Source: Acetatifactor sp.
GTDB taxonomy: Bacteria > Bacillota > Clostridia > Lachnospirales > Lachnospiraceae
DNA length: 64,000 nucleotides
Reading direction: 5' to 3'
NCBI GenBank assembly: GCA_029055435.1
Contig: JAIDDH010000074.1
Span: 1 to 64,000, forward strand
Shown here one piece after another: positions 33,300-63,920 of the stretch. Numbering within the stretch: the first letter of the stretch is position 1; each line of letters begins with the position of its first letter. The translations under genes were made by a program, and so were the position numbers. The notes beneath the pieces are model-generated. The model worked only from the letters and a program-made list of their open reading frames with translations, was not told the origin of the DNA and did no database searches.

Positions 33300-33464
33300 G
33301 AAAAATGGGAAAGGCTATGACGGTAACGGTTATAGTCTTTTTTCTTGCAGTTATAGACGGGCAAAATGAAGTGAAAAAGTGTCAGCAGTAAAATATAGCA
33401 CTCAAGGCATTAAATGCGAAATTTGACCGCCACAGAGTGCTATAACGGTATCATGTGGGGCAGG

Positions 33465-33722
33465 CTATTCTTGAATGTCCAATCCTTCAAAGAAATCGTC
33501 ATAGGTGCAGTCATATATTTTGCGTAATTCCATGAGGACGCTAATCTTGATATTCAGTTCGCCGTTCTCATATTTTGCGTAAGTGGAGCGACCAATATCA
33601 CAGCCACGCTGCTGTAATAAAGCACAGAGTTTTTCTTGTGAAATATTGTGCTTTTCGCGGAGGGCTTTTAGATTGCTGCCGATGTTCCTATCTCTCCGTA
33701 ATTTCTGTTCCATTTGTATCAT
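33465..33722 (-). CDS. XRE family transcriptional regulator
   Basis: HTH: IGSNLKALREKHNISQEKLCALLQQRGCDIGRSTYAKYENGE. Confidence 0.9.
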   Translation of the reverse strand: MIQMEQKLRRDRNIGSNLKALREKHNISQEKLCALLQQRGCDIGRSTYAKYENGELNIKISVLMELRKIYDCTYDDFFEGLDIQE

Positions 33723-33858
33723 CCCTTCTTAGACCAATATTGAGGTCAATACCATTGTAAGAATTTTTCAGTAAAAATATTGTCCGTGATACTGGTCAGA
33801 ATGAAAAAGGAATGATAGAATAACATTTATAATACAAATTTAGAAATGTAGCAGAGGA

Positions 33859-34305
33859 TTGGGTGAAAATATGGAACTGGTCAGAACAGGGGCAAGAGAG
33901 GTCAAATTTTATTTAGACATAGCTTTCATTTCTCAATATGAACTTGATTTTGAAACATTTGAAAAGAGAAAGCCATTTACTGCAAAAATCGTTGATGATT
34001 TGCTGAACCTTGCAAATGAGAAATATGGGTTAGATTTTGATGAATATGACACGCCTAAAGCAGTCTATGTTGCAGAGGATCGTGTGGTAATGGTTTTTGA
34101 AAAAAGAAATCAGGATTACTTTGAAACAGAGGAAAATGAGGAACTGGAGATTATGAAAGGCATTAGAGAAATATTCCGTTTTCTGCCAGACGAAAGGATA
34201 TACTTTGAGAAAATGGAGATTGAGGAAAAAAGAAAGCTGTTAGAAGAAATAAGGAATGACGACAATATGACCTATATCAGAGAAAATTTTATGATGTACG
34301 ATTGA
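33859..34305 (+). CDS. hypothetical element-encoded protein
   Basis: 148-aa ORF with uninterrupted coding character. Confidence 0.6.
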   Translation: MGENMELVRTGAREVKFYLDIAFISQYELDFETFEKRKPFTAKIVDDLLNLANEKYGLDFDEYDTPKAVYVAEDRVVMVFEKRNQDYFETEENEELEIMKGIREIFRFLPDERIYFEKMEIEEKRKLLEEIRNDDNMTYIRENFMMYD

Positions 34306-34320
34306 CAAGGAGGTAAGGGA

Positions 34321-34578
34321 ATGGATTTTATTGCTGGTTTTTTCGGGTGGTTGATAATAGCTTATTTTGCATCAATTCCGTTTATATGGATATGGGTGTT
34401 CTATCATAAAATTAAATGCCGAAAAATAGAGGAATGTAGCAACAGAAAATGTAAGTATTGGCAACATTGTGAGCATAACTATGTCGAGCGTAAGAAAGAC
34501 GAGTTAGAGTTAAGAAAGCAGATGTTGTTACATAGTTTAGGATTAACGGAAGAAGATTTGGACAAAGAATATTCCTAA
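34321..34578 (+). CDS. small membrane-anchored protein with Cys cluster, hypothetical
   Basis: N-terminal TM; CRKIEECSNRKCKYWQHCEHNY; RBS aaggaggtaaggg. Confidence 0.65.
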   Translation: MDFIAGFFGWLIIAYFASIPFIWIWVFYHKIKCRKIEECSNRKCKYWQHCEHNYVERKKDELELRKQMLLHSLGLTEEDLDKEYS

Positions 34579-34608
34579 AAGGAATACGATACGGGGAGAG
34601 GGCATATA

Positions 34609-34682
34609 TTTACAGTCATTATGTGGAAGTATGTTTGCAATCATAAGTGGCATTATGTTTACATTCATTATTTGGCAGATAT
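34609..34682 (+). repeat. three imperfect ~24-25-bp direct repeats
   Basis: TTTACAGTCATTATGTGGAAGTATG / TTTGCAATCATAAGTGGCATTATG / TTTACATTCATTATTTGGCAGATAT in tandem; followed by 2x atatcaatccat. Confidence 0.6.
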
Positions 34683-34815
34683 ATCAATCCATCATATCAA
34701 TCCATTCTTAAGAAAAATTCATTGGAATTATGTATGCTCATATGATAAACTAATGAAGTTGCATAATTTAACAAATCAAAAAAGTTATAGTAATGACTTA
34801 CTGGGAGGTATGTAT

Positions 34816-35355
34816 ATGAGGAAGAATAAAAAGATAGTTATATTAACAGGTATTTTTCTAATGACCTTGAGTATTGTTGCTTGTGGGCAAGTAAAAGAAG
34901 ATGAATTTACTATAAATCAGCAGGAAAGCGATATACAAACTGTTGAGAGTACAGATTCAGAAATAAAAGGAGATGATACCGTAACCACAGAGGAATCTTC
35001 TGCAAATCAGCAGGAAAACAGCACACAGACGGTTGAGAGTATAAATCCAGACACATTTCCTGTTGGAGAATATCATGATGATATGGGTTCTCAGTTGATT
35101 ATCTCCAAGGTTGATGACAAAAACTATACTATAGAATACGGAATATACAAATTAATGTATACGGAAAATGCAGTTGGAAGTTATGATGTCAATACTGGAA
35201 TATTATCTTTTTCTGGAACAGATATCAGCACTGAAAGCACATTATCTGCGGACGTGACAATCCAAGGGAATAATCTGATAGTTACATTAACAAATTCTGA
35301 ATTTCCAGACTGTCCGACAGGAACAGTTTTTGAATTTGAACCTAGTCAACCATGA
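34816..35355 (+). CDS. lipoprotein, hypothetical
   Basis: Lipobox LSIVACGQ; internal repeat NQQES..QTVES / NQQEN..QTVES; start placed at ATG 34816. Confidence 0.7.
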   Translation: MRKNKKIVILTGIFLMTLSIVACGQVKEDEFTINQQESDIQTVESTDSEIKGDDTVTTEESSANQQENSTQTVESINPDTFPVGEYHDDMGSQLIISKVDDKNYTIEYGIYKLMYTENAVGSYDVNTGILSFSGTDISTESTLSADVTIQGNNLIVTLTNSEFPDCPTGTVFEFEPSQP

Positions 35356-35410
35356 TAAAAATATTTGGTTTCTATAAGGAATTGTAAAAAACTGAAAATT
35401 GTTTACCTTT

Positions 35411-35451
35411 AGGTAGCGATTATCTTAACAGAAAATCAGCTACCTTTTTTA
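35411..35451 (+). terminator. intrinsic terminator
   Basis: AGGTAGC ... GCTACCT followed by TTTTT. Confidence 0.7.
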
Positions 35452-35497
35452 TTACCAGTAACTATCAACTTATCACAGAAAGAATGAGGTATCGGAA

Positions 35498-35839
35498 ATG
35501 ATTGAGAACAAGCAGGAAGTCAGTAAAGATTTAGAAAAAGCATTACAGGCATTGGAGCAGGCAAAACAGCGTGTAGCAAACGAAAAGAAAAAACAGAACG
35601 AGAAGAAACGCAAAGCCGAGAACCACCACAAGTATATCATGGGTGGCATTATCGTGAAGTATTTCCCCGACTGTTACAACTTTGACGAGGACGAGTTGAA
35701 CCGTATATTATCAGTGGCATTACAGACAAAGGAGTGTCAGCAGATTATATCTAAAATCAAGTCGGAAAGCCGAGAAACCACTCCCCCACAATCCACTGTC
35801 CCCAATGCCGAAAATGAAAGCGAGGGCGATACGGAATGA
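35498..35839 (+). CDS. DUF3847-like protein
   Basis: NEKKRKAENHHKYIMGGIIVKYFPDCYNFDEDELNRIL; typical neighbour of MobA/MobL. Confidence 0.75.
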   Translation: MIENKQEVSKDLEKALQALEQAKQRVANEKKKQNEKKRKAENHHKYIMGGIIVKYFPDCYNFDEDELNRILSVALQTKECQQIISKIKSESRETTPPQSTVPNAENESEGDTE

Positions 35840-35876
35840 CGAGGGCAACGGAACTGAAAAGCCGAGGTAACGTATT

Positions 35877-36083
35877 CACCCCGTTTACGGGGTGCGCACA
35901 GATATACCACCAGAGGTGGTATGTGCGCTCTCCGAGGGGCAAGTTTCACTTGCATGGACTCTTGCAGAGGGCGTTGTCTGTCTTGCGACAGCCAAAAGGG
36001 GAAACGACAATTCCCCTTCGCAAGCTGCGCTTGCTACCCTTTAGTGAACTTTGCGTTCAGACAAAAGCCAAAGTGCGGCTTTT
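35877..36083 (+). repeat. array of eight consecutive stem-loops (candidate oriT structure or structured RNA)
   Basis: Stems read directly: 35877-35894, 35894-35928, 35939-35953, 35959-35969, 35978-35991, 35996-36018, 36020-36034, 36063-36083. Confidence 0.75.
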
Positions 36084-36103
36084 ATCTGCCCACAAAGTCT
36101 ATG

Positions 36104-36113
36104 AGTGCGCCCC
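36104..36113 (+). other. candidate oriT nick region
   Basis: ATGAGTGCGCCCCA resembles the RSF1010/pIP501/pGO1-type MOBQ nic consensus (TAAGTGCGCCCT); ~25 bp upstream of the relaxase start. Confidence 0.55.
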
Positions 36114-36136
36114 ACTACCCTGTCGGCAGAATGTAG

Positions 36137-37720
36137 GTGTTGTATATGGGTAGTGTCACGAAACAGGCAAGCACACGTTTTTCCATAGTCAAGCGGAGCA
36201 AGGGGCAGTCAGCGGTTGAGAAAGCGTCCTATATCAGCAGGAGCATTCTTGTGAGCGAATATGACGGGCAGACCTACCGCCCCAAATACCATGAAGATTT
36301 AGTACACAGTGAAATCTCTCTCCCACCCAATGCGCCCAAAGAATATGCAGACCGAGCCACCTTATGGAACGCTGTTGAACTGTCAGAGAAAGGGCAGAAA
36401 TCACAGCTTGCAAGAATGTTAAAAGCGTCACTCCCCAACGATTGGAGTTATGAGCTTGCGGAGGAAGTCGTGAGGGATTATGTGCAGCGGAATTTTGTTG
36501 ACAAGGGAATGTGTGCGGATTGGGCGATCCATGACAGCGAGAACGACAAAGGACAGCGTAATCTCCATATCCATGTTTTACTAACCATGCGCCCTATCAC
36601 TGAAAACGGGGAATGGGGAGCAAAGACCAAAAAGGTTTACATCTTTGATGAAAATGGGGAGCGTGTTCCCCTTATTGACAAAAAGACAGGTCAGCAGAAA
36701 GTGGATAATCGTAACCGCAAACAGTGGAAATGTCAGACCGTAGAAAGCACTGATTGGAACAGCCAAGAAAACGCCAAGATGTGGCGGAAAGATTTAGCCG
36801 ACACAATCAATGCCACCAATGAGCGGTTGGGGATTGATGTCCATTGGGAACACCGTTCTTTTAAGGAACAGGGAATAGATAAAGAGCCGACGATCCATAT
36901 CGGGGCAACTGCCAATGCTTTAGAGCGCAAGGGCATACAGACCGAGAGGGGAAACATTAATCGGGAAATCGTCAGGCGCAACATGATGTTGGAACAGGCA
37001 AAGGCAATGCTTGAACTTGCCAAGCAGGAAGTACAGAGCATACAGTATGCCAAGATTAGAAATGCGGCAGTCAGCGTGAAGAATGAAGTCCTTGAAATGA
37101 TTGCGAAAGTGGCGAAACGTAAAGGCAGACTTGATTTGCCGATTGTCAGCGGAAAGCACCTAAGAAAAATATCCGACAGAACCGCCTTGCAGTCAGCCGA
37201 CAATGCAGAGAAGTTTATCACCACAAGGAAGATAGACAGTTTTGAGAGCCTTGCGAAATTCACAGCAGATATGGAACAGAAATACGGACAGCTTGACAGC
37301 GTACATTTATCAAAGGGGCAGAAACTAAGCCGACTAAAGGAACTGTCAAAAATGTATGCCCTTTATGAGCCATACCGCACCACCTACAAAGAGAGCCAGT
37401 CACTAAAAGGAATTGCAAAAATGAAGTTTGACAAGGAACATAAAGAGAGCCTTGCCAAATATCCCGAAAAGCGTGAGCGGTTGCAGAACCTTTTGGAGCA
37501 GGGCGAGAAGATAACACCGAAACAGTGGAAAGCGGAAATACAATCCTTGCAAAGTGAGTATGACAGTATCAGCAGAGAAAAGTCAAGGACTGCCACAGAG
37601 TTAGCGTATGCCGAGGTAATCAGCTATAACAAGAAAAACCTTGAAAGGGAACTTCAGAACGAGAGCCGACAGCATAACAGGCAACAGAGCAGGACTAAGC
37701 GGAGGGAGGAAGAAATTTAA
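36137..37720 (+). CDS. MobA/MobL family relaxase
   Basis: SIVKRSKGQSAVEKASYISRS; HIHVLLTMRPI histidine motif; GTG 36137 or ATG 36146 start. Confidence 0.93.
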   Translation: MLYMGSVTKQASTRFSIVKRSKGQSAVEKASYISRSILVSEYDGQTYRPKYHEDLVHSEISLPPNAPKEYADRATLWNAVELSEKGQKSQLARMLKASLPNDWSYELAEEVVRDYVQRNFVDKGMCADWAIHDSENDKGQRNLHIHVLLTMRPITENGEWGAKTKKVYIFDENGERVPLIDKKTGQQKVDNRNRKQWKCQTVESTDWNSQENAKMWRKDLADTINATNERLGIDVHWEHRSFKEQGIDKEPTIHIGATANALERKGIQTERGNINREIVRRNMMLEQAKAMLELAKQEVQSIQYAKIRNAAVSVKNEVLEMIAKVAKRKGRLDLPIVSGKHLRKISDRTALQSADNAEKFITTRKIDSFESLAKFTADMEQKYGQLDSVHLSKGQKLSRLKELSKMYALYEPYRTTYKESQSLKGIAKMKFDKEHKESLAKYPEKRERLQNLLEQGEKITPKQWKAEIQSLQSEYDSISREKSRTATELAYAEVISYNKKNLERELQNESRQHNRQQSRTKRREEEI

Positions 37721-51355: not shown

Positions 51356-53935
51356 ATGCTGGAATTTCAGGAAGGATTTTTTGAGCAGGAGGTTCGCAAC
51401 GGATTCTATATAGACACTACAATGAAAACCGTTTGGGCCGCAGAACTGGAGATGTTGCAGAAAATTGCAGAGATTTGTGACAGACATGGCTTGAAATGGT
51501 ATGCGGCTTATGGCACTTTGCTGGGAGCCATCAGACATGAGGGATTTGTGCCATGGGATGACGACATGGATATCTGGGTAAAAAGACCGGATTACAATAA
51601 GCTCATGAAATTACTGCCCAAGGAATTGCCGGAGGGATATCGTGTCAGAAGTCCTTTAACTGATGAGGGATATGAACAGTATCATACATGTGTAAACAGC
51701 GGAAGTGGTATCAGCATTGCAAAAGAGTGGCTTGAACAGTTCCACGGATGCCCTTTTACGGTGGGACTGGATATCTTTCCGCTTGACTATATGCCAAGGG
51801 ATGCGAAAGAGAGGCAATTACAGGAAAATCTCTTAGCTATGGCTGGAAGAATTGCTCAGTTAGCTAAGAATATCGGGCGCGGAGATTATGACGGGGAGGA
51901 TGAGGAGAGTCAAAATCAAAGAAAAGGTTTTCAGGAAGAAATCAGGGAAGGTATTGCGTATCTTGAGGAAAACTGCAAATTAACGCTGGATCATCAGCTT
52001 TTAGAAGATGAAAATTGGGATGCCCTCTCATCTGAACTCTGGAAGTGGGGTAACTATATTGCCATGATGTATAGTGAGGATGAGAGCGATTATATCGTAG
52101 AATGGCTTGATTACATCCAGTATGGTAAGACAAGGATTTTCCCTAAAGCATGGTTTGAGGATGGTTACAGCGCACTGTTTGAGGGATTTATGCTTCCGAT
52201 ACCTGCAGAGTACGACAATATAATGAGGAACATTTATGTGCATCCTCTTGTATATCAAAAGAAAACAGGTATGCACGAGTATCCCTATTATGCAAGACAG
52301 CTTCGGCAGCTTAGGGAGTATGTAAAGGGCATTGAACAGCGCGCATTTGATGTGGGAATTGTAAAAATCGAGGACATCGAGTTGGAGGATGTCCCCACAG
52401 AAATTCCTCAGGAATGGCAGCCATATACATTAAAAGAAGACGGGACGCGCAAGCGTATTATTTTAAGTGCAAATGATGCGGTATTTTATGCCAGACATGG
52501 TCAGCAAGCGTTGGATAAGCTCGAGCAGACTTTAAATGCCTTTGAGAAAGCAAAGGAATCGGTTTTGTTATGGTGGAGGCCGCATCCTGTAATGAAGAAG
52601 ATTTTGGATGAGGTGTCCCCTGAATTGGGAACAAGGTATCAGCGAATTCTGGAGGGATACAAGACTGCAGGATGGGGTATTTGTGACGAGTCGGATAATG
52701 TTGACCGGGCAGTGAAGAACTGCGACGCATATTACGGTGACATGAATGCGATTCTTCAGCCGTTTCAGGACACGGGTAAGCCCATTATGCTTTCAACTAT
52801 AGAGCCTTCTGCAAATAATGAGGATAGAGTGAACGAGTACAGGACATTTTTAAGTATTGCGGATTATGTGGAGGATGGGGATAAAATATACTTTGCCAAC
52901 ACCAATTACAATGCGCTGGTGATAGCCGATAAGGTGAATGGGAAAGTTGAACGGATTATTCCTTTTGATGAATTGGCGCAGAATGTCCGAAATATACATA
53001 TACGATGTGTGAGAAAGGGAAATAAAATATGTTTCCTTCCTGCGGCAGCGCCGTTTGCACATATATATGACATGGATGATAATACTCTTCTTTGCTGCAG
53101 ATTCTTAAGCGAGGATGAGGAAAGACCTTCTAAGAAGACTACTAGATATAATGTATGGAGTTATTTTGATGGAACCGGTGAAGTCTATCTTCTTCCATGC
53201 GCTGGAGAGCAGGGCGTGTGGAGATGGAATGTTGACGATAACACCTTTGAGAGAGAGGAATGGTGGGACGAATTACAGGTTTGCGGATATGTGAGCCATG
53301 GGAGCGTGGACGAGGAATCTTTCTATACTTTAAAGCTTCCTTCAAATTGTTTGTGGATTACCAATGTCAGAACTAAGAAAGTGGAACGTTATGAATTGCC
53401 GGATGCGAATGCAGTTGCTATAACATATGGCGGCGGAAACTTTTGGTATACATTTGCAGATAATTTGAATTGTATTGTGTGCTGGAATCCGGTCAATGGT
53501 GTTGTGGACAGATATCATATAGACTGGACGGGGAGAAAAAAGTATGATGATTTTGTAAAATGGTATTATTTCGAAGGGAATTTATATCTATTCTCATATG
53601 CGGCTCAGACATTGTATCGTTTTGAGCCGGATAAGAGAGAATTGACTTGTGTTTATGAGTCTGATTGCACCAGAGGAAATTTCTTCATGCATGAAGTGGA
53701 ACCGTTTATTCGTCATGTGGGAAATGAGCTGATTTGTCTGATGAAGAATGCCGGGGAGATTGTACGGGTTAATCTGGAGACAAACGAGGTTGTAAGGGAA
53801 GTCGTGAACCTGACGTTGGATGAAAGCGCTAAGGAATATGAGCAAAAGCTTCTGATTGCCAGCAAGGGAGTCCTGCTTGAGGAAACGGATGAAATGACTC
53901 TGGATACCTTTTTGAGATTTTGTCCGGAAAGTTAA
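51356..53935 (+). CDS. LicD-domain protein fused to a phosphotransferase/GT-like middle segment and a propeller-like C-terminus
   Basis: GLKWYAAYGTLLGAIRHEGFVPWDDDMDIWV is LicD; long C-terminus with repeated beta-rich blocks; 859 aa. Confidence 0.85.
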   Translation: MLEFQEGFFEQEVRNGFYIDTTMKTVWAAELEMLQKIAEICDRHGLKWYAAYGTLLGAIRHEGFVPWDDDMDIWVKRPDYNKLMKLLPKELPEGYRVRSPLTDEGYEQYHTCVNSGSGISIAKEWLEQFHGCPFTVGLDIFPLDYMPRDAKERQLQENLLAMAGRIAQLAKNIGRGDYDGEDEESQNQRKGFQEEIREGIAYLEENCKLTLDHQLLEDENWDALSSELWKWGNYIAMMYSEDESDYIVEWLDYIQYGKTRIFPKAWFEDGYSALFEGFMLPIPAEYDNIMRNIYVHPLVYQKKTGMHEYPYYARQLRQLREYVKGIEQRAFDVGIVKIEDIELEDVPTEIPQEWQPYTLKEDGTRKRIILSANDAVFYARHGQQALDKLEQTLNAFEKAKESVLLWWRPHPVMKKILDEVSPELGTRYQRILEGYKTAGWGICDESDNVDRAVKNCDAYYGDMNAILQPFQDTGKPIMLSTIEPSANNEDRVNEYRTFLSIADYVEDGDKIYFANTNYNALVIADKVNGKVERIIPFDELAQNVRNIHIRCVRKGNKICFLPAAAPFAHIYDMDDNTLLCCRFLSEDEERPSKKTTRYNVWSYFDGTGEVYLLPCAGEQGVWRWNVDDNTFEREEWWDELQVCGYVSHGSVDEESFYTLKLPSNCLWITNVRTKKVERYELPDANAVAITYGGGNFWYTFADNLNCIVCWNPVNGVVDRYHIDWTGRKKYDDFVKWYYFEGNLYLFSYAAQTLYRFEPDKRELTCVYESDCTRGNFFMHEVEPFIRHVGNELICLMKNAGEIVRVNLETNEVVREVVNLTLDESAKEYEQKLLIASKGVLLEETDEMTLDTFLRFCPES

Positions 53936-53948
53936 AGGGAAAAATCCA

Positions 53949-54374
53949 ATGCTTGAATTGATTCAAAAAGTGTTAAACGAATATGACAAGGTTTTTCTGA
54001 TTGCTGACAAATCCGTTTATGCAGGGAGTGACTGGGAGCGCTTCTGCAATGTAATACAAGCAATGGAGAAAAAGCCGGAACAAGGAGAGCTGTTTAAGAA
54101 GGTACTTCTTAAGAAGATTCTTCTTATTATAGAGGAAGGGGTTGAATATGATCTGAGTTTTCCCCATGTGGTACTGTCACATCAGGAAACATGGGATCTT
54201 TGGAAATTGTATATGACTTATGAATTTTCAGATCGGTTTTCAGTTTTTCCCGATGGCGGACAATATGGTACAGTTTTCGGCTATTCAGATGCAGGAATCT
54301 TGACGGAGCAGGAAGCTGTAATGGCTATTTTGGGATATAGGAAGGGTATTGAGGATGGACAAATTACATTATGA
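53949..54374 (+). CDS. hypothetical glycan-locus protein
   Basis: 141-aa ORF overlapping the downstream GT9-like gene. Confidence 0.6.
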   Translation: MLELIQKVLNEYDKVFLIADKSVYAGSDWERFCNVIQAMEKKPEQGELFKKVLLKKILLIIEEGVEYDLSFPHVVLSHQETWDLWKLYMTYEFSDRFSVFPDGGQYGTVFGYSDAGILTEQEAVMAILGYRKGIEDGQITL

Positions 54375-55578
54375 GGAAATGAAGTCCAATCTTAACGAAT
54401 TGATAAGACAAAATGCCATACAGGGAACGCGTATATATTTGTTTGGACATTGCAACGCAACCGAAGAATTGGTCGATTTGTTGTTGGAAAAGGGCTTTAT
54501 GGTTACGGCCATATTGGATAATAATACCGATAAGCATGGAAATGTTTATCGCAATATACCGATTAAGGCGCCCGAGGAAATATTGTCTGAGAAAGACAGC
54601 ACGATTGTGTGTATTGCCGCAAGAGCATATGCGGCAATGGCTGCACAGTTAAGGCGGATGGGATATACTGGACCGGTGCGCAAGCTGGTTGATTATAACA
54701 GTTATGCCGAGTATTCGCTGGAGGAAGAAACCATAACCCGGATGAATGAAAGAAGAAAGCGGGGCAGTAAGCGTTTGGAATCCTTAAAAGCAAAGTATAG
54801 GGATTGTTTTCGCATTCTCTGCCCTTTTTCCGCTTTGGGAGATATATACATAATGATGTCGTATCTCCCTCATTTTATGAGAAAAAGAGGGATTGAGAAC
54901 TGCGTTGTGGGGGTTATCGGAAACGGATGCGCCAAAGTGGTACGTCTGTTTGGTTCATATCAGGTGGAGACGTTTGCCCAAAAGGACATGGATGAGGTAA
55001 TACAGGCCGCGCTATATGAGGGGGATGAAGGAACCTTTATCCCGCATCAGGACAGGCCGTATGTGGTTAATCTTTCCAAGGCAATGTATTTTAAGCCGAT
55101 TACTTTGGAACAGATGTACTGCTGCGGCGTGTTTGGTCTGCCGGAGGATACCAGGCCATATGCTCCGGTATGCTTTGCGGAGTACGGAAAACTTGAGACA
55201 ATGCAGGAGGGCAGAGCTGTTATTCTGTCTCCTTACGCCAAATCCGTTACGGCTTTACCGGCTTGTGTTTGGGAGCAGATTGTTGTATACTATGTGAGTA
55301 AGGGATATCAATGTTTTACAAATGTATCGGGTGATGAGAAACCATTACCCGGTACTGCTGCGATAGCGCCTTCCATTGCAGAAATGAAATCAGTGGTGGA
55401 GCGGGCAGGGACGTTTGTGGGGATACGCAGTGGACTGTGTGATGTCATCAGAGATGTGAATGCCAAAAAGATTGCGCTTTATCCTGATTATAATTATTCT
55501 GATACACCTTGGAAAGCGATTGATATATATGCGTTGGACGGATGGACTAATATTGTCGTGAAAGGGGAGGACGCATGA
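54349..55578 (+). CDS. N-terminal Rossmann-like module plus GT9-like glycosyltransferase
   Basis: RIYLFGHCNATEELVDLLLEKGFMVTAILDNN; FRILCPFSALGDIYIMMSYLPHF; AVILSPYAKSVTALP. Confidence 0.65.
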   Translation: MRMDKLHYEEMKSNLNELIRQNAIQGTRIYLFGHCNATEELVDLLLEKGFMVTAILDNNTDKHGNVYRNIPIKAPEEILSEKDSTIVCIAARAYAAMAAQLRRMGYTGPVRKLVDYNSYAEYSLEEETITRMNERRKRGSKRLESLKAKYRDCFRILCPFSALGDIYIMMSYLPHFMRKRGIENCVVGVIGNGCAKVVRLFGSYQVETFAQKDMDEVIQAALYEGDEGTFIPHQDRPYVVNLSKAMYFKPITLEQMYCCGVFGLPEDTRPYAPVCFAEYGKLETMQEGRAVILSPYAKSVTALPACVWEQIVVYYVSKGYQCFTNVSGDEKPLPGTAAIAPSIAEMKSVVERAGTFVGIRSGLCDVIRDVNAKKIALYPDYNYSDTPWKAIDIYALDGWTNIVVKGEDA

Positions 55579-55946
55579 AGGACAAGATAATAATGTCAAC
55601 CTTGCCCAAGACATGGATTTTTGATTTGGACGGTACGCTTCTAAAACATAACGGATACAAACTGGACGGGAAGGACAGTATTTTGCCCGGAGTAAAGGAA
55701 TATTTGGATTCCATCCCGCAAGATGACAGATTGATCATACTGACTTCGAGAACGGAAGAATATCGGGACAGTACGATCTGCTTTCTTGAGGATGAGGGCA
55801 TTCGTTATGATGAGATATTGTTTAACATGCCGTTTGGCGAAAGAATCGTGGTAAACGATCGAAAACCATCGGGACTTGAAACGGCGGTTGCCTTTAATAT
55901 TGACAGAGACCGTTTTGAATTGCCTGATATAGAAAGAGAAAGATAG
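55575..55946 (+). CDS. HAD superfamily phosphatase
   Basis: WIFDLDGTLLKHNGY motif I; IILTSRTEEY motif II; VVNDRKPSG. Confidence 0.85.
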   Translation: MKDKIIMSTLPKTWIFDLDGTLLKHNGYKLDGKDSILPGVKEYLDSIPQDDRLIILTSRTEEYRDSTICFLEDEGIRYDEILFNMPFGERIVVNDRKPSGLETAVAFNIDRDRFELPDIERER

Positions 55947-55964
55947 AATTATTGAGGAGATAGT

Positions 55965-57488
55965 ATGGATTACATTATTGTTCAGGCAGGGGGTAAGGGA
56001 ACCCGATTAGAATATTTGACCAGGAATAAGCCCAAGGCATTGGTGCCGGTGGAAAATCTGCCCATGCTGTTTCACTTGTTCCAGAAATATCCGGACAAGA
56101 AATTTGTGATTATAGCGGATTACAAGAAGGAAGTGCTTCACGAATATCTGGAGTGTTTTGCCAAAGTGATTTATCAGATTGTGGACGCAGGCGGCACGGG
56201 AACCTGTGCCGGAGTAAAGCAGGCGATTGATTTGATTCCGGAGGGTGAGCCCTTCATGCTGGTGTGGTCAGATCTGATTCTGCCCCCGGCTCTCGAGCTG
56301 CCCGAAGGATATGAGACAGCAACCCGGGATGGGGCAACAGCGGATTATGTGGGCATTTCGACTACTTTCCCCTGTAGGTGGAGTTACTCGGAGGGGCGGT
56401 TTTATGAGGAAAAATCTTATGAACACGGCGTGGCAGGATTTTTTCTGTTCACGGATAAGAGCAAGCTTCAGGATGTTCCGGAGAGTGGGGAATTAGTGAG
56501 ATGGATGCAGGAGCAGCAGATGATTTTTCAGGAGCTTTCTCTCGCCGGAACCAAGGAATTTGGTCTGCTGGAGGAATATCAGAAACTGCAGCAGGAGAAA
56601 TGCCGTCCTTTTAACAGGATAACGATTACAGATGATATGGTGATCAAGGAAGGGATTGACGAACAAGGCAGAAAGCTTGCTGTCCGGGAATGCCGGTGGT
56701 ATGAGAAGGCGAAAGAAAACCATATTACGATTCTGCCTGAAATCTATGCTACGAATCCTTTGAAGATGGAGCGTATCCGGGGGAAAAATATTTATGAATA
56801 TGATCTTCCGTATGACGATAAGAAAAAGATTTTGGAGAAGCTTGTCGGTTCATTGAAGCAGCTGCACGAGACGGAAAAAATTCCAACGGACACGTTCAGT
56901 TTAAAGCAAGCTTATTACAATAAGACGATGGACAGAATCAACAGTATTCGCGATCTGGTGCCGTTTGCCAATTGTCAGGAAATTACTGTCAATGGGAAGA
57001 AATGCAGAAATGTGTTTTACTATAAGAGAGAGCTTGGACAGATGTTAGAGCGGCTGAATTGCAGGGAGTTTTGTTTTATTCATGGTGACTGTACCTTCTC
57101 CAACATGATGCTCAGAGAAGACGGAACCCCGGTGCTGATCGACCCCAGGGGATATTTTGGATTTACTGAACTGTATGGCGACCCGCTTTATGACTGGGGT
57201 AAGCTTTATTACTCCCTTGTGGGCAATTATGACCGCTTTAACCTGAAGGATTTCAGGCTTTCGATAAATGAGCGGGACGTAACGCTCGAGATTGCTTCCA
57301 ATCATTGGGAGGACATGGAGCAGGATTTCTTTGCTTTAACCGGCGCAGAACCGTGGGAAATCAAACTGATTCATGCGGTTATCTGGCTGTCGTTAACTAC
57401 CTATGCATGGCAGGATTATGACTCAGTCTGCGGCGCTTTTTATAATGGTTTATACTATTTGGAGGATTGCTATGATCAGCTATTTTGA
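55965..57488 (+). CDS. nucleotidyltransferase fused to APH/choline-kinase-like phosphotransferase
   Basis: VQAGGKGTRLEYLTRNKPKALVPV; C-terminal FIHGDCTFSNMMLREDGTPVLIDPRG. Confidence 0.88.
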   Translation: MDYIIVQAGGKGTRLEYLTRNKPKALVPVENLPMLFHLFQKYPDKKFVIIADYKKEVLHEYLECFAKVIYQIVDAGGTGTCAGVKQAIDLIPEGEPFMLVWSDLILPPALELPEGYETATRDGATADYVGISTTFPCRWSYSEGRFYEEKSYEHGVAGFFLFTDKSKLQDVPESGELVRWMQEQQMIFQELSLAGTKEFGLLEEYQKLQQEKCRPFNRITITDDMVIKEGIDEQGRKLAVRECRWYEKAKENHITILPEIYATNPLKMERIRGKNIYEYDLPYDDKKKILEKLVGSLKQLHETEKIPTDTFSLKQAYYNKTMDRINSIRDLVPFANCQEITVNGKKCRNVFYYKRELGQMLERLNCREFCFIHGDCTFSNMMLREDGTPVLIDPRGYFGFTELYGDPLYDWGKLYYSLVGNYDRFNLKDFRLSINERDVTLEIASNHWEDMEQDFFALTGAEPWEIKLIHAVIWLSLTTYAWQDYDSVCGAFYNGLYYLEDCYDQLF

Positions 57489-58059
57489 GAAACAGTTAAA
57501 AGAGATTGATGAATCGATTCACTCGCTGGACGAGAATGCTTTTAAACGGTGGGTAAAGGAAGCCGTGGACACGATTGATTCCGGACACAAGATTGTGGTC
57601 TCCGGCCTGGGGAAAAATGTTCCTATCTGTGATAAATTCGTGGGCTCCATGATATCATTGGGAATGGATGCTTATTTTCTACATACGAACTCCGCTGTCC
57701 ACGGGGATATGGGTATTGTCAAAGATGGCGATATGGTCATCATCCTCACCAAGAGCGGTGAGACGTCCGAGTCGGTATATCTGGCCAATCTGCTTATGGA
57801 GAGAAAGGTCAATATGTGGCTGCTCTCCTTCGTGCGTGAGAGCACATTGACAAAGCTGATTCCGAATCATATCATCATGGATTTGAAGCATGAGGGGGAT
57901 TTGTGGAACATTATGCCAAATAATTCTACAACATTGAACCTGATTGTGCTGCAAGGGCTTGCCATGCAGATTGCGAAAGAACGGAATATGGATATTGCGG
58001 AGTTTAGGCGCAATCATCCGGGCGGGCACATCGGTAAAGTGCTGAATGAAGAAAAATAA
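57472..58059 (+). CDS. SIS-domain sugar isomerase
   Basis: IVVSGLGKNVPICDKFVGSMISLGMDAYFLH; ILTKSGETSESVY; C-terminal HPGGHIGKVL. Overlaps the upstream gene. Confidence 0.92.
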   Translation: MISYFEKQLKEIDESIHSLDENAFKRWVKEAVDTIDSGHKIVVSGLGKNVPICDKFVGSMISLGMDAYFLHTNSAVHGDMGIVKDGDMVIILTKSGETSESVYLANLLMERKVNMWLLSFVRESTLTKLIPNHIIMDLKHEGDLWNIMPNNSTTLNLIVLQGLAMQIAKERNMDIAEFRRNHPGGHIGKVLNEEK

Positions 58060-58089
58060 CAAGAGAAAAATTTCCTAAAAGGAGCCGAT

Positions 58090-58554
58090 ATGGGTGTTTG
58101 GAGGCAGTTAGCGCAGGCCTGGAAGGGGAGTATTCAATGGAAGGGGCTGAGACGTAAATATGGAATCGGGAAAGATGGTATTATTGTCTTCCTGATAGAA
58201 CAGGATGATGAGTTAAATCAGTATGCCTTTGAATATGCCGGTGATTTAATGGAATTGAAGCATCAGAGCAGCATATTCATGATAACGCCGTATGAGGATG
58301 TGTTCGATCAAATACCGGATTTGGACGGCTCGGTCATCAAAATAAAAATCAGTTCCGGACAATGTGAGTGCATAAAGAAATATTATCAGCTTGTGAGGTT
58401 TTCAGGGAGCGTGTATTTCATCTCTGCCGTATGGCCGGAATCAAACTGGGCGGAACATATACTTGGCAAGCATGGTGTGGATAAAGAAGATTTGGTTTGC
58501 TTAGGAATTTATGCGCTGCGTATTTTGCCGCGAAAGGGAGAAAAGCGGGCATGA
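58090..58554 (+). CDS. hypothetical glycan-locus protein
   Basis: 154-aa ORF with ATGA overlap to the next gene. Confidence 0.6.
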   Translation: MGVWRQLAQAWKGSIQWKGLRRKYGIGKDGIIVFLIEQDDELNQYAFEYAGDLMELKHQSSIFMITPYEDVFDQIPDLDGSVIKIKISSGQCECIKKYYQLVRFSGSVYFISAVWPESNWAEHILGKHGVDKEDLVCLGIYALRILPRKGEKRA

Positions 58555-59852
58555 TTTATGAAAGCTGGGGAAGACGGACCAGAAAACATATCAAACATCT
58601 GGTTAATAGCGGAAAAGTGTCTGCGGACAATACGGTCATTATCTTTGGAGCGGGCGAGTCGTCCAAGGAAGCAATGGATATTCTGAGGGAGTTCGGCATC
58701 AAAATAAGCAGGATTGTAGATAATGATGTGCGGAAACAGGGAAAGTATTGCTCCGGTGTTGAAATAGAAGATCCTGTTGTAATTAAGGAACAGTGGCAGG
58801 ATGGAATGATTGTGTTGTTCTATTCATACTATCATGCAGACGAGATGGCAAGCCAATTAAAAGGCTACGGATTAAAGGAAAATAGAGATTTCTTTTCGCT
58901 TGTAAGATATGAGTTTATGCAAAATACAGTCTGGAAGCAGACTTACAGGGTATTGCAGGGGTTAAAGCTGTATAATAAGCTGCGGAAGAAGTATCCGGAT
59001 TGTGAAAAGATTTTGCTTTGTCCGTATACAGGTACAGGCGATGTATACTTGATTGGCGGAATGCTGCAGCAATATTTGGAGCAGCAAGACATACACAAAT
59101 ATGTGTTTATCGTAGTAAGCACGGCCTGCCGCAAAATCGCACAGCTATTCGATATTCAGAATATTGAACAGTTGCAGGGGGAAATGGCAGATTACATAGT
59201 AAAGGCCAATGTGTTTTGTCCCGACAGATGCGATGTGCTGGTGCTCAATGACAGCTGGGTGAGTGTATATACCAATCCGACGGAGCGTCTGCGCGGTTAT
59301 AAGGGTTTAAATTTTACCGCTGTGTTTCGGAACATTGTGTTCCAAATTAAAGGGGATTTGAAATTAAGCTTTCCCGATTGGAGGAGAAATACAGAAGAGG
59401 CCCAGGCCTTTCTCAAGGAGCATCATATGATTCAGGGAAGGACGGTCATTTTGGCGCCTTATTCCAATACCTTATCGGAGTTTCCCAATCGGATGTGGGA
59501 GCAATTAGTAGTATCTCTGCATGAAAAAGGATATGTGGTGTGTACAAACAGCTGTGGTCCCAAAGAGCCGCCCATCAAAGGGACGGAGGGAGTTTTCTTT
59601 CCTTTGAGCATTGCGGCTGCTGTTGTCAGCCTTGCCGGAGGATTTATAGGGGCAAGGTGTGGATTGTGCGATATTATCAGTTCCGCAAGCGCGAAGAAAG
59701 TGATTATATATGACAAGGACAGTTATTTTTATCAGGCAACAACCAAGGCGTATTTCAGCCTGAATGATATGGGATTGTGTCAGGATGCGATAGAGCTGGA
59801 TTATGTAGGTGACATCGATTCCGTTGTCGGACAAGTGCTTGCCAATTTTTAA
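58551..59852 (+). CDS. N-terminal Rossmann-like module plus GT9-like glycosyltransferase (paralogue of 54349-55578)
   Basis: TVIIFGAGESSKEAMDILREFGIKISRIVDND; KILLCPYTGTGDVYLIGGML; TVILAPYSNTLSEFP; GGFIGARCGLCDIISSASAKKVIIY. Confidence 0.65.
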   Translation: MIYESWGRRTRKHIKHLVNSGKVSADNTVIIFGAGESSKEAMDILREFGIKISRIVDNDVRKQGKYCSGVEIEDPVVIKEQWQDGMIVLFYSYYHADEMASQLKGYGLKENRDFFSLVRYEFMQNTVWKQTYRVLQGLKLYNKLRKKYPDCEKILLCPYTGTGDVYLIGGMLQQYLEQQDIHKYVFIVVSTACRKIAQLFDIQNIEQLQGEMADYIVKANVFCPDRCDVLVLNDSWVSVYTNPTERLRGYKGLNFTAVFRNIVFQIKGDLKLSFPDWRRNTEEAQAFLKEHHMIQGRTVILAPYSNTLSEFPNRMWEQLVVSLHEKGYVVCTNSCGPKEPPIKGTEGVFFPLSIAAAVVSLAGGFIGARCGLCDIISSASAKKVIIYDKDSYFYQATTKAYFSLNDMGLCQDAIELDYVGDIDSVVGQVLANF

Positions 59853-59899
59853 GAGATTGAATACTACGATAGAAAATATATGTCAAAAGGAGAGGGAAA

Positions 59900-61129
59900 A
59901 TGGGAGAGAAATTGGAGGTAAAACTGGACGTAAAGAGGTCGATCCATGTTATCAATGAGCTGCCGCATTATTATGAATTGCAGGACATGTTTGATTTCTG
60001 CGCAAAATATGAGAATTTATATATATATGGAACGGCCTATGAACAGGAAATGCTGCTTAAATATTTTGATATGTCAGGGATTAAAATTGACGGATTTGTC
60101 GTTACTCAGGGAGAGGAGGACGAGAGGGAGTTCGTCTATCGGCAACTGCCTGTCAGGAATATCCACGATGTGATGAAGGAAAAAGGCGCAGGGGTGATTT
60201 TGGCTATTTCAGAGAAATACTTTGGCTCTATCATTCCGATGTTCCGAAGGGAAGGATTTACGGATTATTTCCGGATGTCGGAATATAATAAGGCGGCGAT
60301 TGCTTATAATGTCCGGAGGCGGCCGAAGGAAGAGTATACGCTGGAGGTAAATGTTTCGGATCATTGTAACCTTTCCTGTCAGATGTGCGACCATTATTCC
60401 CAATTATCCAAGGAAAGATTCCTTGATATAGAGCAGTTTGAAAAGGATATGAAGCGTCTGGGTGAATTGTTTGACCATAAGATTGCCTGCATAACCTTGC
60501 TGGGGGGAGAACCCACGCTCAACAAAAATTTGATAAAGTGCATAAAAGTGGTCAGGGAGTCGTTTCCTGACTGCCAGTTAATTATACTCACCAACGGAGT
60601 ATTGCTGTTAGATTGGGAGAACTATCCGGAAGGCAATCTGTGGCAGGCTTGCAAGGATTATAAGGTAGATATAACCGTGACAGTCTATCCGATTAATCTG
60701 AAGTATGAGGAGATGGAGAGAAAGGCGAAAGAGTATGGCATAAATTTGAAGATGTCATCTGACATTCATGCCGTGACTCCTACCAAGATGGTAAAGGTTT
60801 CGGATAAGCATGTGATGAAGCCGGACAAGTCAAGTCCGAACTATCTTGGAATAGGATGTTTATATTATAATAAATTTAATGTGCTGAAAAACGGTCGGAT
60901 ATATATGTGCCCGGTGGCTGCCCACAGCGGTATATTGAATGAAAGTTTTGGACAGAATTTTGAGCTTACAGATAAGGATTCGATTGACATCTACAAGGTC
61001 AACAGTTGGGAAGAAATTACAGAATTCGGATGCCATGCCATTCCGTTCTGCAGCTATTGCGATTTGAGGAACTGGCATCATGATTCCAACTGGAAAGCAA
61101 GTTCTAAAACGATAGACGAATATATTTAA
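59900..61129 (+). CDS. radical SAM protein with N-terminal Rossmann-like module and Cys-rich C-terminus
   Basis: NVSDHCNLSCQMCDHYS (CX3CX2C), LLGGEPTLNKN; C-terminal CLYYN...MCPVAAH...CSYC. Confidence 0.9.
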   Translation: MGEKLEVKLDVKRSIHVINELPHYYELQDMFDFCAKYENLYIYGTAYEQEMLLKYFDMSGIKIDGFVVTQGEEDEREFVYRQLPVRNIHDVMKEKGAGVILAISEKYFGSIIPMFRREGFTDYFRMSEYNKAAIAYNVRRRPKEEYTLEVNVSDHCNLSCQMCDHYSQLSKERFLDIEQFEKDMKRLGELFDHKIACITLLGGEPTLNKNLIKCIKVVRESFPDCQLIILTNGVLLLDWENYPEGNLWQACKDYKVDITVTVYPINLKYEEMERKAKEYGINLKMSSDIHAVTPTKMVKVSDKHVMKPDKSSPNYLGIGCLYYNKFNVLKNGRIYMCPVAAHSGILNESFGQNFELTDKDSIDIYKVNSWEEITEFGCHAIPFCSYCDLRNWHHDSNWKASSKTIDEYI

Positions 61130-61142
61130 GGAGGCGGTACGG

Positions 61143-61952
61143 ATGCAGGCGGTTACCCTTAACAATGGCGTGGAAATGCCTCAGATTGGATTAGGAACAT
61201 TTGCGTTGAAGGAGCAGGCTATCGTAAGCGCATTGCAGACGGGATACCGCATGCTCGATACGGCGTGGCAGTATGGCAATGAGGAAGAAGTGGGCAATGC
61301 GGTGCGCCACAGCGGCATTGAGCGTAAAGACATTTTCATTACGACCAAGTTGTGGACGGACCATATACGGCAGCATACGGTCCGGGAGGCATTTGAGGAC
61401 AGCTTGAGGAAGCTGCAGACAGACTATGTGGATTTGTATCTGATTCACTGGCCTGCGGAAGGCTTTGATGCTGCATGGAAGGTAATGGAGGAGTTATATG
61501 CAGAGGGCAGGGTCAGAGCCATCGGAGTGAGCAACTGCCACGTGCAGCATTTGGAGCTTTTGGCAAAGGTATCAGATATCGTGCCGGCGGTGAATCAGGT
61601 GGAGTCGTCCCCGCTGTTTAATAATGAGGCTCTGATTCAGTATTCACGAGACCGGGGGATCGTGCCGGAGGCATGGTGTCCTTTAGGAGGTTCGGGCTGT
61701 TATAAGCGGGTATTGGAGAACCCTTTGATTATGGATATGGCTCACCGCTATAACAGGACGGAGGCACAGATTGTCTTAAGATGGCATATCCAGCGTGGAA
61801 TAGTCATCATCCCCAGATCATCCGATGGGGAGCGCCAAAGGAAGAATATAGATGTGACAGACTTTGAACTGACAGCGGAGGATATGGCTGTCATCGCGGG
61901 GATTGACACAGGAAGGCGTGTAGGCGCCAATCCCGACACCTTCAATTTCTAA
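61143..61952 (+). CDS. aldo/keto reductase
   Basis: VEMPQIGLGTFAL, MLDTAWQYGNEEEVG, VDLYLIHWP, IPRSSDGERQRKNI. Confidence 0.95.
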   Translation: MQAVTLNNGVEMPQIGLGTFALKEQAIVSALQTGYRMLDTAWQYGNEEEVGNAVRHSGIERKDIFITTKLWTDHIRQHTVREAFEDSLRKLQTDYVDLYLIHWPAEGFDAAWKVMEELYAEGRVRAIGVSNCHVQHLELLAKVSDIVPAVNQVESSPLFNNEALIQYSRDRGIVPEAWCPLGGSGCYKRVLENPLIMDMAHRYNRTEAQIVLRWHIQRGIVIIPRSSDGERQRKNIDVTDFELTAEDMAVIAGIDTGRRVGANPDTFNF

Positions 61953-61970
61953 TGATGAGGAACAGGTAAA

Positions 61971-63227
61971 ATGGTCGAATATGAGAGAAGGGAATTGTAT
62001 TACAGACTTGGCAGGATGCATGATGAGGGTGTATTCTCAAAGGCTTCCATAGTGGTGTGTTTCGGATTCAATTATTTTGCCAAGTGTATTGTGGCATTTT
62101 TGCTGGGGGCGGGAGTTGAGCAGTCAAAAATACATATTGTAGATAATTATGCGACAGGTGAATACAAGGGAGTAAATGTGCAAAGACCGGATGAGGTGTT
62201 GGAGCCCTTCAATGCCGATGCGGTAATTCTGTTAGCATCGTCTTACAATAAAGCAATGACAAAGCAATTGAAAAAGTTGGGCTATCGCAGGAAACGGCAG
62301 ATATTTGAGATTTTAAACAATGCATCAAAATTTTATAAGCTCGGAAGCCGTATCAAAGTGACCCATCCTGATATGTATAATAAGATTTTGAGTAATATGG
62401 TTTTTCCCATTTATAAGCATACACATGCTGATTTATATCAGAAGATGCAGCAGAATAGTAAATTTAAAGATATTCACAAAGGTGAGCGCTGCTTTATTAT
62501 GGGAAATGGTCCGTCGCTGAAGACCGTTGATTTTTCACTATTGGAAAATGAGATTGTCTTTGGTGTCAACCATATTATGAAAGTGCCCGGGTGGGAAAAT
62601 GCTCATATCAATTATTGGACATGCACAGATGGCGACTATCTTGGAATTTGGACGAATGCATTATATACCTTTTATCAGGAAGTGCAGAAGCTGCAGGGAA
62701 AGGGAGTATCCTGTTTTATACCATTTGAGGCAGAACAATATTGTAGATTGCATGGCTTGGATGCAGTGTTGGATCTGAATTATATCAATGCACAGGAACA
62801 ATATACGAGTATTGATCAGAAAATGAACATTCGGGATATAGACTTAACCCGATTTATGATGCAAGGCTTTAATGTCGTTCTCACAAGTATTAATATAGCG
62901 ATTTATATGGGCTTTTCAGAGATTTATCTGCTTGGCTGCAATCAATCCAATTTGAAGGGGGAACTTTTGTATTATTTGGATAATTGTGACATTGACAGTC
63001 ATGCATTTGAAGGGCGTAACAGTGAGGCGAGTGTCGTTCTGAAAAGAAAAGTAAAAACGCAGGGGATATTGTCTGAAATCAAAGTGGAGCTCACACAGAT
63101 TATACAATTTGGTCTGTTGTATGATTATTGTAAAAGGAATGGGGTTAAACTGGTTAATTTGTCCCATCCGACATTGATTGAAAATGTTCCTCAGGATACC
63201 CTTGAAAATGTATTGAAAGAGAAGTAA
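61971..63227 (+). CDS. N-terminal Rossmann-like module plus DUF115 (MptE/Maf-like) protein
   Basis: GERCFIMGNGPSLKTVDFSLLENEIVFGVNHI; EIYLLGCNQSNL; HAFEGRN. Confidence 0.8.
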   Translation: MVEYERRELYYRLGRMHDEGVFSKASIVVCFGFNYFAKCIVAFLLGAGVEQSKIHIVDNYATGEYKGVNVQRPDEVLEPFNADAVILLASSYNKAMTKQLKKLGYRRKRQIFEILNNASKFYKLGSRIKVTHPDMYNKILSNMVFPIYKHTHADLYQKMQQNSKFKDIHKGERCFIMGNGPSLKTVDFSLLENEIVFGVNHIMKVPGWENAHINYWTCTDGDYLGIWTNALYTFYQEVQKLQGKGVSCFIPFEAEQYCRLHGLDAVLDLNYINAQEQYTSIDQKMNIRDIDLTRFMMQGFNVVLTSINIAIYMGFSEIYLLGCNQSNLKGELLYYLDNCDIDSHAFEGRNSEASVVLKRKVKTQGILSEIKVELTQIIQFGLLYDYCKRNGVKLVNLSHPTLIENVPQDTLENVLKEK

Positions 63228-63260: not shown

Positions 63261-63920
63261 ATGAAGATAGTAGCTTTTGAACCGATTAAATTGAATTCAC
63301 AGAGATTGCCGGGAAAAAACAAACTTCCGCTGGCGGGCAGACCGCTTTGCTATCATCTGACAAATGCATTGCTGCAGGTTCCTGAAATCGATGAAGTATA
63401 TGTCTTTTGCAGCAGCGAGGAAGTTATGGATTATGTTCCCGAAGGGACAAAATTTTTGAAGAGGGACAGCTATTATGACGGAGACAGCGTGAAAAGCTTT
63501 GAATTGATTGGAAAGTTTATTGATTCTGTCGATGCGGATATTTATGTGTTTGCCAATACGACATCCCCTTTCCTGAAAGCGGATTCTATTTCAAATGCTT
63601 TACGGCATGTGATTGACGGCGAATATGATTCAGCAGTTACAGTGCGTGAATTTAAGACCTTTGCGCTGTATCAGGGTAAGCCTCTCAATTATGATATCAA
63701 TGATATCCCTAAGACTCAGGATATAGAACCTGTTTACGTGGAGACGAGCGGGGCATATATTTTCAAAAAGGAGATTTTTACGGAGCATCGCAGAAGATTA
63801 GGATTTCATCCTTATTTACAGATTGTGGACGAGATAGAGGGCGTTGATATCGATACAAAAGAAGATTTTGATTATGCTGAAACTTTGGCGAGGCTGGCTG
63901 ACCGGGAGGCGCTGTCATGA
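63261..63920 (+). CDS. acylneuraminate cytidylyltransferase-family protein
   Basis: FEPIKLNSQRLPGKNKLPLAGRPL; DIYVFANTTSPFLKADSI; EIEGVDIDTKEDFDYAE. Confidence 0.9.
   Translation: MKIVAFEPIKLNSQRLPGKNKLPLAGRPLCYHLTNALLQVPEIDEVYVFCSSEEVMDYVPEGTKFLKRDSYYDGDSVKSFELIGKFIDSVDADIYVFANTTSPFLKADSISNALRHVIDGEYDSAVTVREFKTFALYQGKPLNYDINDIPKTQDIEPVYVETSGAYIFKKEIFTEHRRRLGFHPYLQIVDEIEGVDIDTKEDFDYAETLARLADREALS

Follow-up and report, generated by a model that had tools for sequence, protein, structure and literature searches.

A Rossmann-like module shared by diverse enzymes of a predicted glycan locus in Acetatifactor sp. and other Lachnospiraceae

Module-bearing proteins of the locus

The window considered here is a stretch of 64,000 nucleotides from Acetatifactor sp. 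(Lachnospiraceae), corresponding to positions 1 to 64,000 of contig JAIDDH010000074.1 (GenBank assembly GCA_029055435.1). Close to its 3' end, four proteins, referred to as A, B, C, and D, carry one homologous N-terminal Rossmann-like module of ~85 residues on different enzymes. Their open reading frames (ORFs) were confirmed at 54349, 58551, 59900, and 61971, all on the plus strand. In protein A (54349..55578), the module (residues 26-106) precedes a GT9-like transferase, and PF08484 is matched above its cut-off (E 2.7e-5). Protein B (58551..59852) combines the module with a second GT9-like transferase. Its likely ATG at 58551 lies within an ORF that opens at 58497, and its PF08484 match (1.9e-4) falls just under the cut-off. 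The module of protein C (59900..61129; residues 36-120), detected by profile (E 0.028), is followed by a radical S-adenosylmethionine (SAM) enzyme (PF04055, 6.3e-10). In protein D (61971..63227), the module (residues 27-105) is joined to a DUF115/MptE-like transferase of the Maf/CstII-like type (PF01973, 3.7e-8).

The homology of these four N-termini can be taken as practically certain. Pairwise alignment gives just 18-24% identity to the first copy, that of protein A, and four positions (G22, G38, Y83, and G94 in the numbering of the first module) are invariant. As the identity is low and Rossmann-like stretches are common, leave-one-out testing was used. Profile hidden Markov models scored the omitted modules of A, B, C, and D at 44, 40, 21, and 41 bits, respectively; the best of 1000 shuffles reached 7.5-11. 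When the D module alone was searched against the whole genome of the organism, the only other good matches were B (in the ORF opening at 58497, E 0.0015) and A (54349, E 0.009). Combined into one profile, A, B, and D retrieved C (0.028), the weakest of the four, and a protein encoded at 66296 (0.097) from this 3.47-Mb genome before noise set in at 2.1. The latter, a second DUF115 protein located just outside the window, provides a fifth copy. Neither the four-sequence profile nor the expanded one gave any match in the reversed proteome of the loci. Moreover, the AlphaFold2 models of B and D (mean predicted local distance difference test score, pLDDT, 88.6 and 71.9) show the same Rossmann-like fold, with identical order of secondary structure, beta-alpha-beta-beta-alpha-beta-alpha, over residues ~27-105. 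The preliminary description of this DNA had proposed a single module on all four proteins, and the searches and models bear this out, the two models sharing one fold instead of falling into unrelated ones. That four unrelated Rossmann folds became alike by convergence is scarcely credible: the fold is common and the identity low, but in the own-genome searches nothing except the modules of this locus scored above noise, and every dehydrogenase ranked lower. A fortuitous likeness of Rossmann folds is refuted by these searches for A, B, and D; for C, the numbers are weaker.

The domains downstream of the module had been described as GT9-like, GT9-like, radical SAM, and DUF115, and these assignments were upheld. 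The C-terminal part of protein B adopts the fold of the heptosyltransferase WaaC (Foldseek 2gt1, E 4.1e-7, probability 1.00). Protein A, which can be aligned with B over its whole length, owes its GT9 identity to this alignment, as it misses the cut-off of the GT9 family PF01075 (E 0.29, 10.9 versus 22 bits). Compared to the WaaC-type GT9 heptosyltransferases, whose fold is shared by the C-terminus of B, the window proteins have the module as an extra N-terminal part and do not reach the PF01075 cut-off. Radical SAM identity in protein C comes from PF04055. Protein D stays slightly below the DUF115 cut-off (PF01973, 33.8 versus 34.6 bits), which its homologue at 66296 exceeds (54.6 bits), and its fold matches the sialic acid transferase CstII, which uses a cytidine monophosphate (CMP) donor (1ro8, E 1.2e-5, probability 1.00, in the model with mean pLDDT 71.9). 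The claim that one module sits on mechanistically unrelated enzymes within one glycan locus holds as well. A function of the module in carrier recognition or scaffolding, suggested in the same description, is a hypothesis.

Spread, superfamily, and pocket of the module

The module is far more widespread than could be seen from the window. Within the same family, the four-sequence profile matches 87 of 299 genomes; the relatives named are Lachnospiraceae such as Sporofaciens, Schaedlerella, Butyrivibrio, and Oribacterium. A prevalence of 253/399 genomes, obtained with a broad 110-row profile, was rejected, as that count includes short Rex-like proteins of 210-235 residues across the phylum. The survey sample consisted of 42 stretches, i.e., 40 from relatives, the window, and its continuation. 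It contains 210 module proteins; three or more occur in 31 of the 42 stretches, with a maximum of 12 per 20 kb. Clustering of the non-module sequence yielded 25 partner groups, and at least 18 enzyme classes are fused to the module. The partners named by Pfam comprise GT2, GT4, WbsX, RgpF, LicD, FkbM and TylF methyltransferases, and two radical SAM types, as well as cytidylyltransferase-like, Caps_synth/Gly_transf_sug, TupA ATP-grasp, TIM barrel, DUF4422, NKWYS, TOD1, and Epimerase_2 proteins. GT9-like and DUF115 proteins are further partner classes. The module is N-terminal in 108 proteins and C-terminal in 76, and the unexpanded four-sequence profile by itself reaches 45 of the C-terminal copies. 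In a module tree, the copies follow the partner class (68 changes versus 123 when shuffled) and hardly the locus (164 versus 172). Given this grouping, most fusions look old and not like local copies. On the same comparison, recent copying among the modules within a locus is rejected.

Scattering of the module at random outside glycan loci was not seen; instead, it is concentrated in them. Its neighbours are nucleotidyltransferases, nucleoside diphosphate-sugar dehydratases and epimerases, LicD proteins, glycosyltransferases, aminotransferases, and NeuB, and the locus is very probably a glycan island.

The module itself is a known fold, grouped with the N-terminal domain of NeuD/PglD and with the Rex, CoA-binding, and Methyltransf_14 domains. 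Characterised members of this Rossmann superfamily bind nucleotides. As a sequence search of the PDB with the module profile was uninformative, with chance-level matches only and none for D, folds were compared. The module of protein B matches Rex and the small Rossmann domain 3nkl in Foldseek (Rex/CoA_binding probability 1.00). Among 110 modules, Pfam matches were found to Methyltransf_14 (18), PglD_N (14), C2185-like_N (5), and CoA_binding (5). The NeuD/PglD model TIGR03570 is matched weakly (E<=0.01) by 51 of the 110, and at most 13 match any one Rex model. Each of these relatives also differs from the window copies. With NeuD/PglD (TIGR03570, PF17836), the modules share profile likeness and a glycan context, but the best profile scores lie far under the curated cut-off of 160.8 bits, and the four proteins have no left-handed beta-helix acetyltransferase domain, the module being found on many other enzymes. 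With Rex and CoA_binding (PF02629), they share the fold and profile matches down to 7e-8, but the modules often lack GxGxxG, and the winged-helix DNA-binding domain that is a feature of Rex was not found in the four window proteins, either by Pfam or in the B and D models. Methyltransf_14 (PF08484) is the C-terminal domain of sugar C-methyltransferases. Protein A scores 24.5 bits against its cut-off of 23.5, B stays under it with 21.7, and C and D do not match. In contrast to that family, the window modules are not joined to a cognate SAM methyltransferase but to GT9-like, radical SAM, and DUF115 partners.

The nucleotide loop is unevenly preserved. Across 215 modules, the first loop glycine is present at a frequency of 0.97, the second at 0.67, and an Asp or Glu ending strand 2 at 0.75. 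The second glycine is mostly lost in some classes, GxG occurring at 0.05 in GT9-like and 0.00 in LicD modules, and B alone keeps GxG among the window copies. Conservation of the module among 59 orthologues of A comes close to that of the catalytic domain (0.64 versus 0.69), and F32-G33-H34-C35, D57-N58, K62, R92, and Y94 (F-G-H-C, D-N-x3-K, R-x-Y) are invariant. These residues sit at the edge of the module where Rossmann domains bind ligands. The invariant positions and the conservation close to that of the catalytic part indicate that the pocket is under selection, not obviously for one dinucleotide.

The suggestion that the system may not have been described stands in part. The fold and superfamily are known, and Pfam and NCBIfam catch part of the modules. 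The deployment of the module on many enzyme classes is unusual and apparently undescribed: no paper on the multi-enzyme pattern was found in the literature searched, a negative of little weight, since most subscription papers lay outside the search.

Neighbouring genes and ulosonate pathways

The other genes of the block lie on the same strand. Upstream of protein A, a LicD-family phosphotransferase is encoded at 51356..53935 (PF04991, 3.6e-36). Its C-terminal extension of ~500 residues has no convincing Pfam match, and homologues of this part occur in other module loci. It is followed by a small 141-residue protein (53949..54374) without Pfam match, which forms a conserved pair with the GT9-like gene; its homologues lie directly 5' of A-type genes in relatives, and the cluster is present in 42 of 62 A-type loci. 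Directly after protein A comes a small HAD phosphatase (55575..55946, weak HAD matches), conserved beside A, with homologues in 53/62 A-type loci. A fusion of a nucleotidyltransferase with an APH-type kinase, a combination for sugar activation (55965..57488; PF00483 1.1e-7, PF01636 3.5e-7), is found in 29/62, and a SIS-domain sugar-phosphate isomerase of the KpsF/KdsD type without CBS domains (57403..58059; PF01380 9.8e-11; TIGR00393 1.1e-28, below cut-off) in 32/62. Taken from the sequences, this cassette conserved with protein A suggests the logic of a predicted sugar-phosphate activation pathway. Protein B is likewise preceded by a small protein (58090..58554, 154 residues), a conserved pair with B-type GT9-like genes whose homologues lie directly 5' of such genes; this cluster is present in 18/62 A-type loci. 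Both small proteins overlap or nearly touch the downstream GT9-like module gene, and the pairing recurs in relatives. An aldo/keto reductase (61143..61952; PF00248 3.1e-48) separates C and D, and a cytidylyltransferase resembling CMP-ulosonate synthetases (63261..63920; PF02348 5.1e-18) follows D.

Past the window, the locus continues up to the end of the contig (70453). Between 63261 and 69862 of the contig (L005:3261-9862), a Kdo-type pathway is encoded outside the Gram-negatives, with a DAHP-synthase-like protein (64922), KdsC, a KDO8P synthase, and two cytidylyltransferases. The KDO8P synthase (69011) reaches 398.7 bits with TIGR01362 (cut-off 314), and KdsC (65732) 124.3 with TIGR01670 (cut-off 106.95). 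The sole homologue of the DAHP-like synthase in its own genome is the KDO8P synthase. A ribulose-phosphate epimerase (Rpe) is fused to two CBS domains that resemble those of KpsF/KdsD (L005:3917-4909), so that the CBS regulatory part seems to have moved from the SIS isomerase at 57403 to Rpe. One of the cytidylyltransferases forms an unusual fusion with an RraA-like aldolase (L005:7713-9014). The second DUF115 protein (66296) carries two N-terminal modules. It and protein D are the only two DUF115 proteins of the genome, both encoded in this locus. The synthases, the cytidylyltransferases, and the DUF115 proteins each number two, which suggests a pair of CMP-linked 3-deoxy-ulosonic acids, each with its own transferase. 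The locus appears to encode two CMP-ulosonate pathways, from which the two DUF115 transferases probably draw their donors.

Such donors have a parallel in Maf, a DUF115 flagellin glycosyltransferase for which a CstII-like central domain has been reported (PMC11339370). The Maf enzyme of Clostridium botulinum (CbMaf) accepts CMP-3-deoxy-D-manno-octulosonic acid (CMP-KDO) and CMP-N-acetylneuraminic acid (CMP-Neu5Ac) (PMC11339370), which makes a CMP-ulosonate donor plausible for the DUF115 proteins of the window and its continuation. Like these proteins, Maf enzymes combine DUF115, an N-terminal Rossmann-like domain, and a CstII-like core, and the role of the Rossmann-like domain in them was called unclear (PMC11339370). 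The DUF115 proteins studied here are, however, only remotely similar to Maf, and their contig has no flagellin.

Acceptor of the glycan and role of the module

Flippase- or polymerase-like membrane proteins are rare beside the modules. Of the 32 family loci, one has a polytopic membrane protein (at least eight predicted helices) within the module block or next to it; of the 46 A-type loci, none has. The helices were counted by simple hydropathy; at a looser setting, this count assigns 10 and 9 helices to the MATE-like and EamA-like proteins encoded in the window. In the same 32 and 46 loci, a flippase, polymerase, or ABC exporter, as expected of a Wzx/Wzy or ABC capsule locus, is almost never part of the block. 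A Wzx/Wzy capsule locus is disfavoured by this near-absence. Moreover, of 32 genomes with modules, 17 have a flagellin gene no more than 20 kb from one, and 1.9 would be expected at random positions (P about 1e-13). As flippases and polymerases are rare and flagellin is linked, glycosylation of a protein in the cytosol is favoured over capsule formation, with flagellin as the likeliest acceptor in many loci, and a protein acceptor of this kind is considered somewhat probable. For illustration, nine A-type contigs were chosen among those holding flagellin, and they do not measure linkage; the gene is 10-32 kb from the A gene in six of them and at least 100 kb away in three.

Taken together, the locus could well be a cytosolic glycosylation island of a flagellated member of the Lachnospiraceae, acting on flagellin or another exported protein, with the module as a reused Rossmann domain; this reading is put forward with evenly balanced confidence. 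Under it, a Rossmann domain of the NeuD/PglD-N and Rex type would have been joined repeatedly to nearly all enzyme classes of such islands. The DUF115 proteins at 61971 and 66296 would transfer 3-deoxy-ulosonic acids from CMP, supplied by the neighbouring KdsA/KdsC/KdsB-like genes, the GT9-like pair would transfer sugars activated by the cassette of SIS isomerase, HAD phosphatase, and nucleotidyltransferase-kinase, and LicD would add a phospho-alcohol. The module, at a guess, might dock successive enzymes on one shared acceptor protein or complex. Docking is preferred to sensing because it explains why enzymes otherwise without common features share the module, and it may equally prove right or wrong. 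A further-reaching version, which is rather doubtful, regards the module as a promiscuous docking tag for flagellin or for a membrane-anchored hub, by which glycosyltransferases, methyltransferases, radical SAM enzymes, LicD, and nucleotide transferases would be gathered into one assembly line. A family of ~160-residue proteins with a hydrophobic N-terminus, an 'NQWL..K.EGK' stretch, and one Rossmann module (L056:11523-12017, L078:6660-7154, L080:11840-12319) occurs in many module loci of relatives and, judged from its sequence, may serve module enzymes as a membrane hub. A universal hub is rejected for the present genome, as none was found at the threshold used.

Two other explanations, both possible but on the unlikely side, have to be weighed. 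A locus for a wall or capsule polymer, built from LicD, CDP-ribitol-type (cytidine diphosphate) and GT9 genes, in which the module has no connection with flagellin, would agree with the LicD gene at 51356 and with the IspD/TarI-like, TarJ-like, and Rpe genes present in 12-26 of 62 A-type loci. It would also accommodate the loci distant from flagellin. The scarcity of polytopic membrane proteins in the module blocks speaks against it, even if export genes elsewhere could still serve, as does a flagellin linkage well beyond chance. The second explanation, the main alternative to docking, concerns the role of the module. Each copy could act as a sensor: on binding a nucleotide-type small molecule such as nicotinamide adenine dinucleotide (NAD(H)), coenzyme A (CoA), or a nucleotide sugar, it would adjust the enzyme to which it is fused, much as Rex responds to NADH. 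Rex, CoA_binding, NeuD/PglD-N, and 3nkl are indeed its closest relatives by structure or profile, the loop glycines and the strand-2 acid are kept in many of the 215 modules, and ligand sensing would explain the conserved pocket in the A orthologues. The loss of GxG from GT9-like and LicD modules and from all window copies except B does not fit this role, and one ligand for LicD, radical SAM, and GT2 enzymes alike is hard to explain. That the modules are degenerate, non-functional Rossmann remnants carried along with shuffled enzymes is very improbable, as the low overall identity and the loss of the nucleotide loop in some partner classes are set against conservation close to that of the catalytic domain in 59 A orthologues, invariant pocket residues, and retention on many partner classes.

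Several points weigh against the glycosylation island with a docking module. The flagellin expectation of 1.9 assumes random positions and does not draw on how common flagellin is across the family, and several A-type loci lie at least 100 kb from flagellin. The contig analysed here, on which the island is cut by the contig end, holds no flagellin gene; the genome has five, all on other contigs. A wall polymer would also account for the LicD and CDP-ribitol-type genes that accompany many A-type loci. Furthermore, the pocket residues vary between partner classes, the module tree was drawn from 82 columns and is poorly resolved, and no membrane-anchored single-module protein was found in this genome at the threshold used.

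A module on at least 18 enzyme classes gives a handle on how cytosolic glycosylation enzymes acting one after another on one protein meet the same acceptor. The module can also serve as a sequence tag for uncharacterised glycan enzymes, including a radical SAM family, and the findings point to ulosonic-acid decoration in gut Lachnospiraceae.

Elsewhere in the window, a serine recombinase (31605-33299) and a MobA/MobL relaxase (36137-37720) lie in a region (31605-37720) that resembles an integrated mobilizable element.

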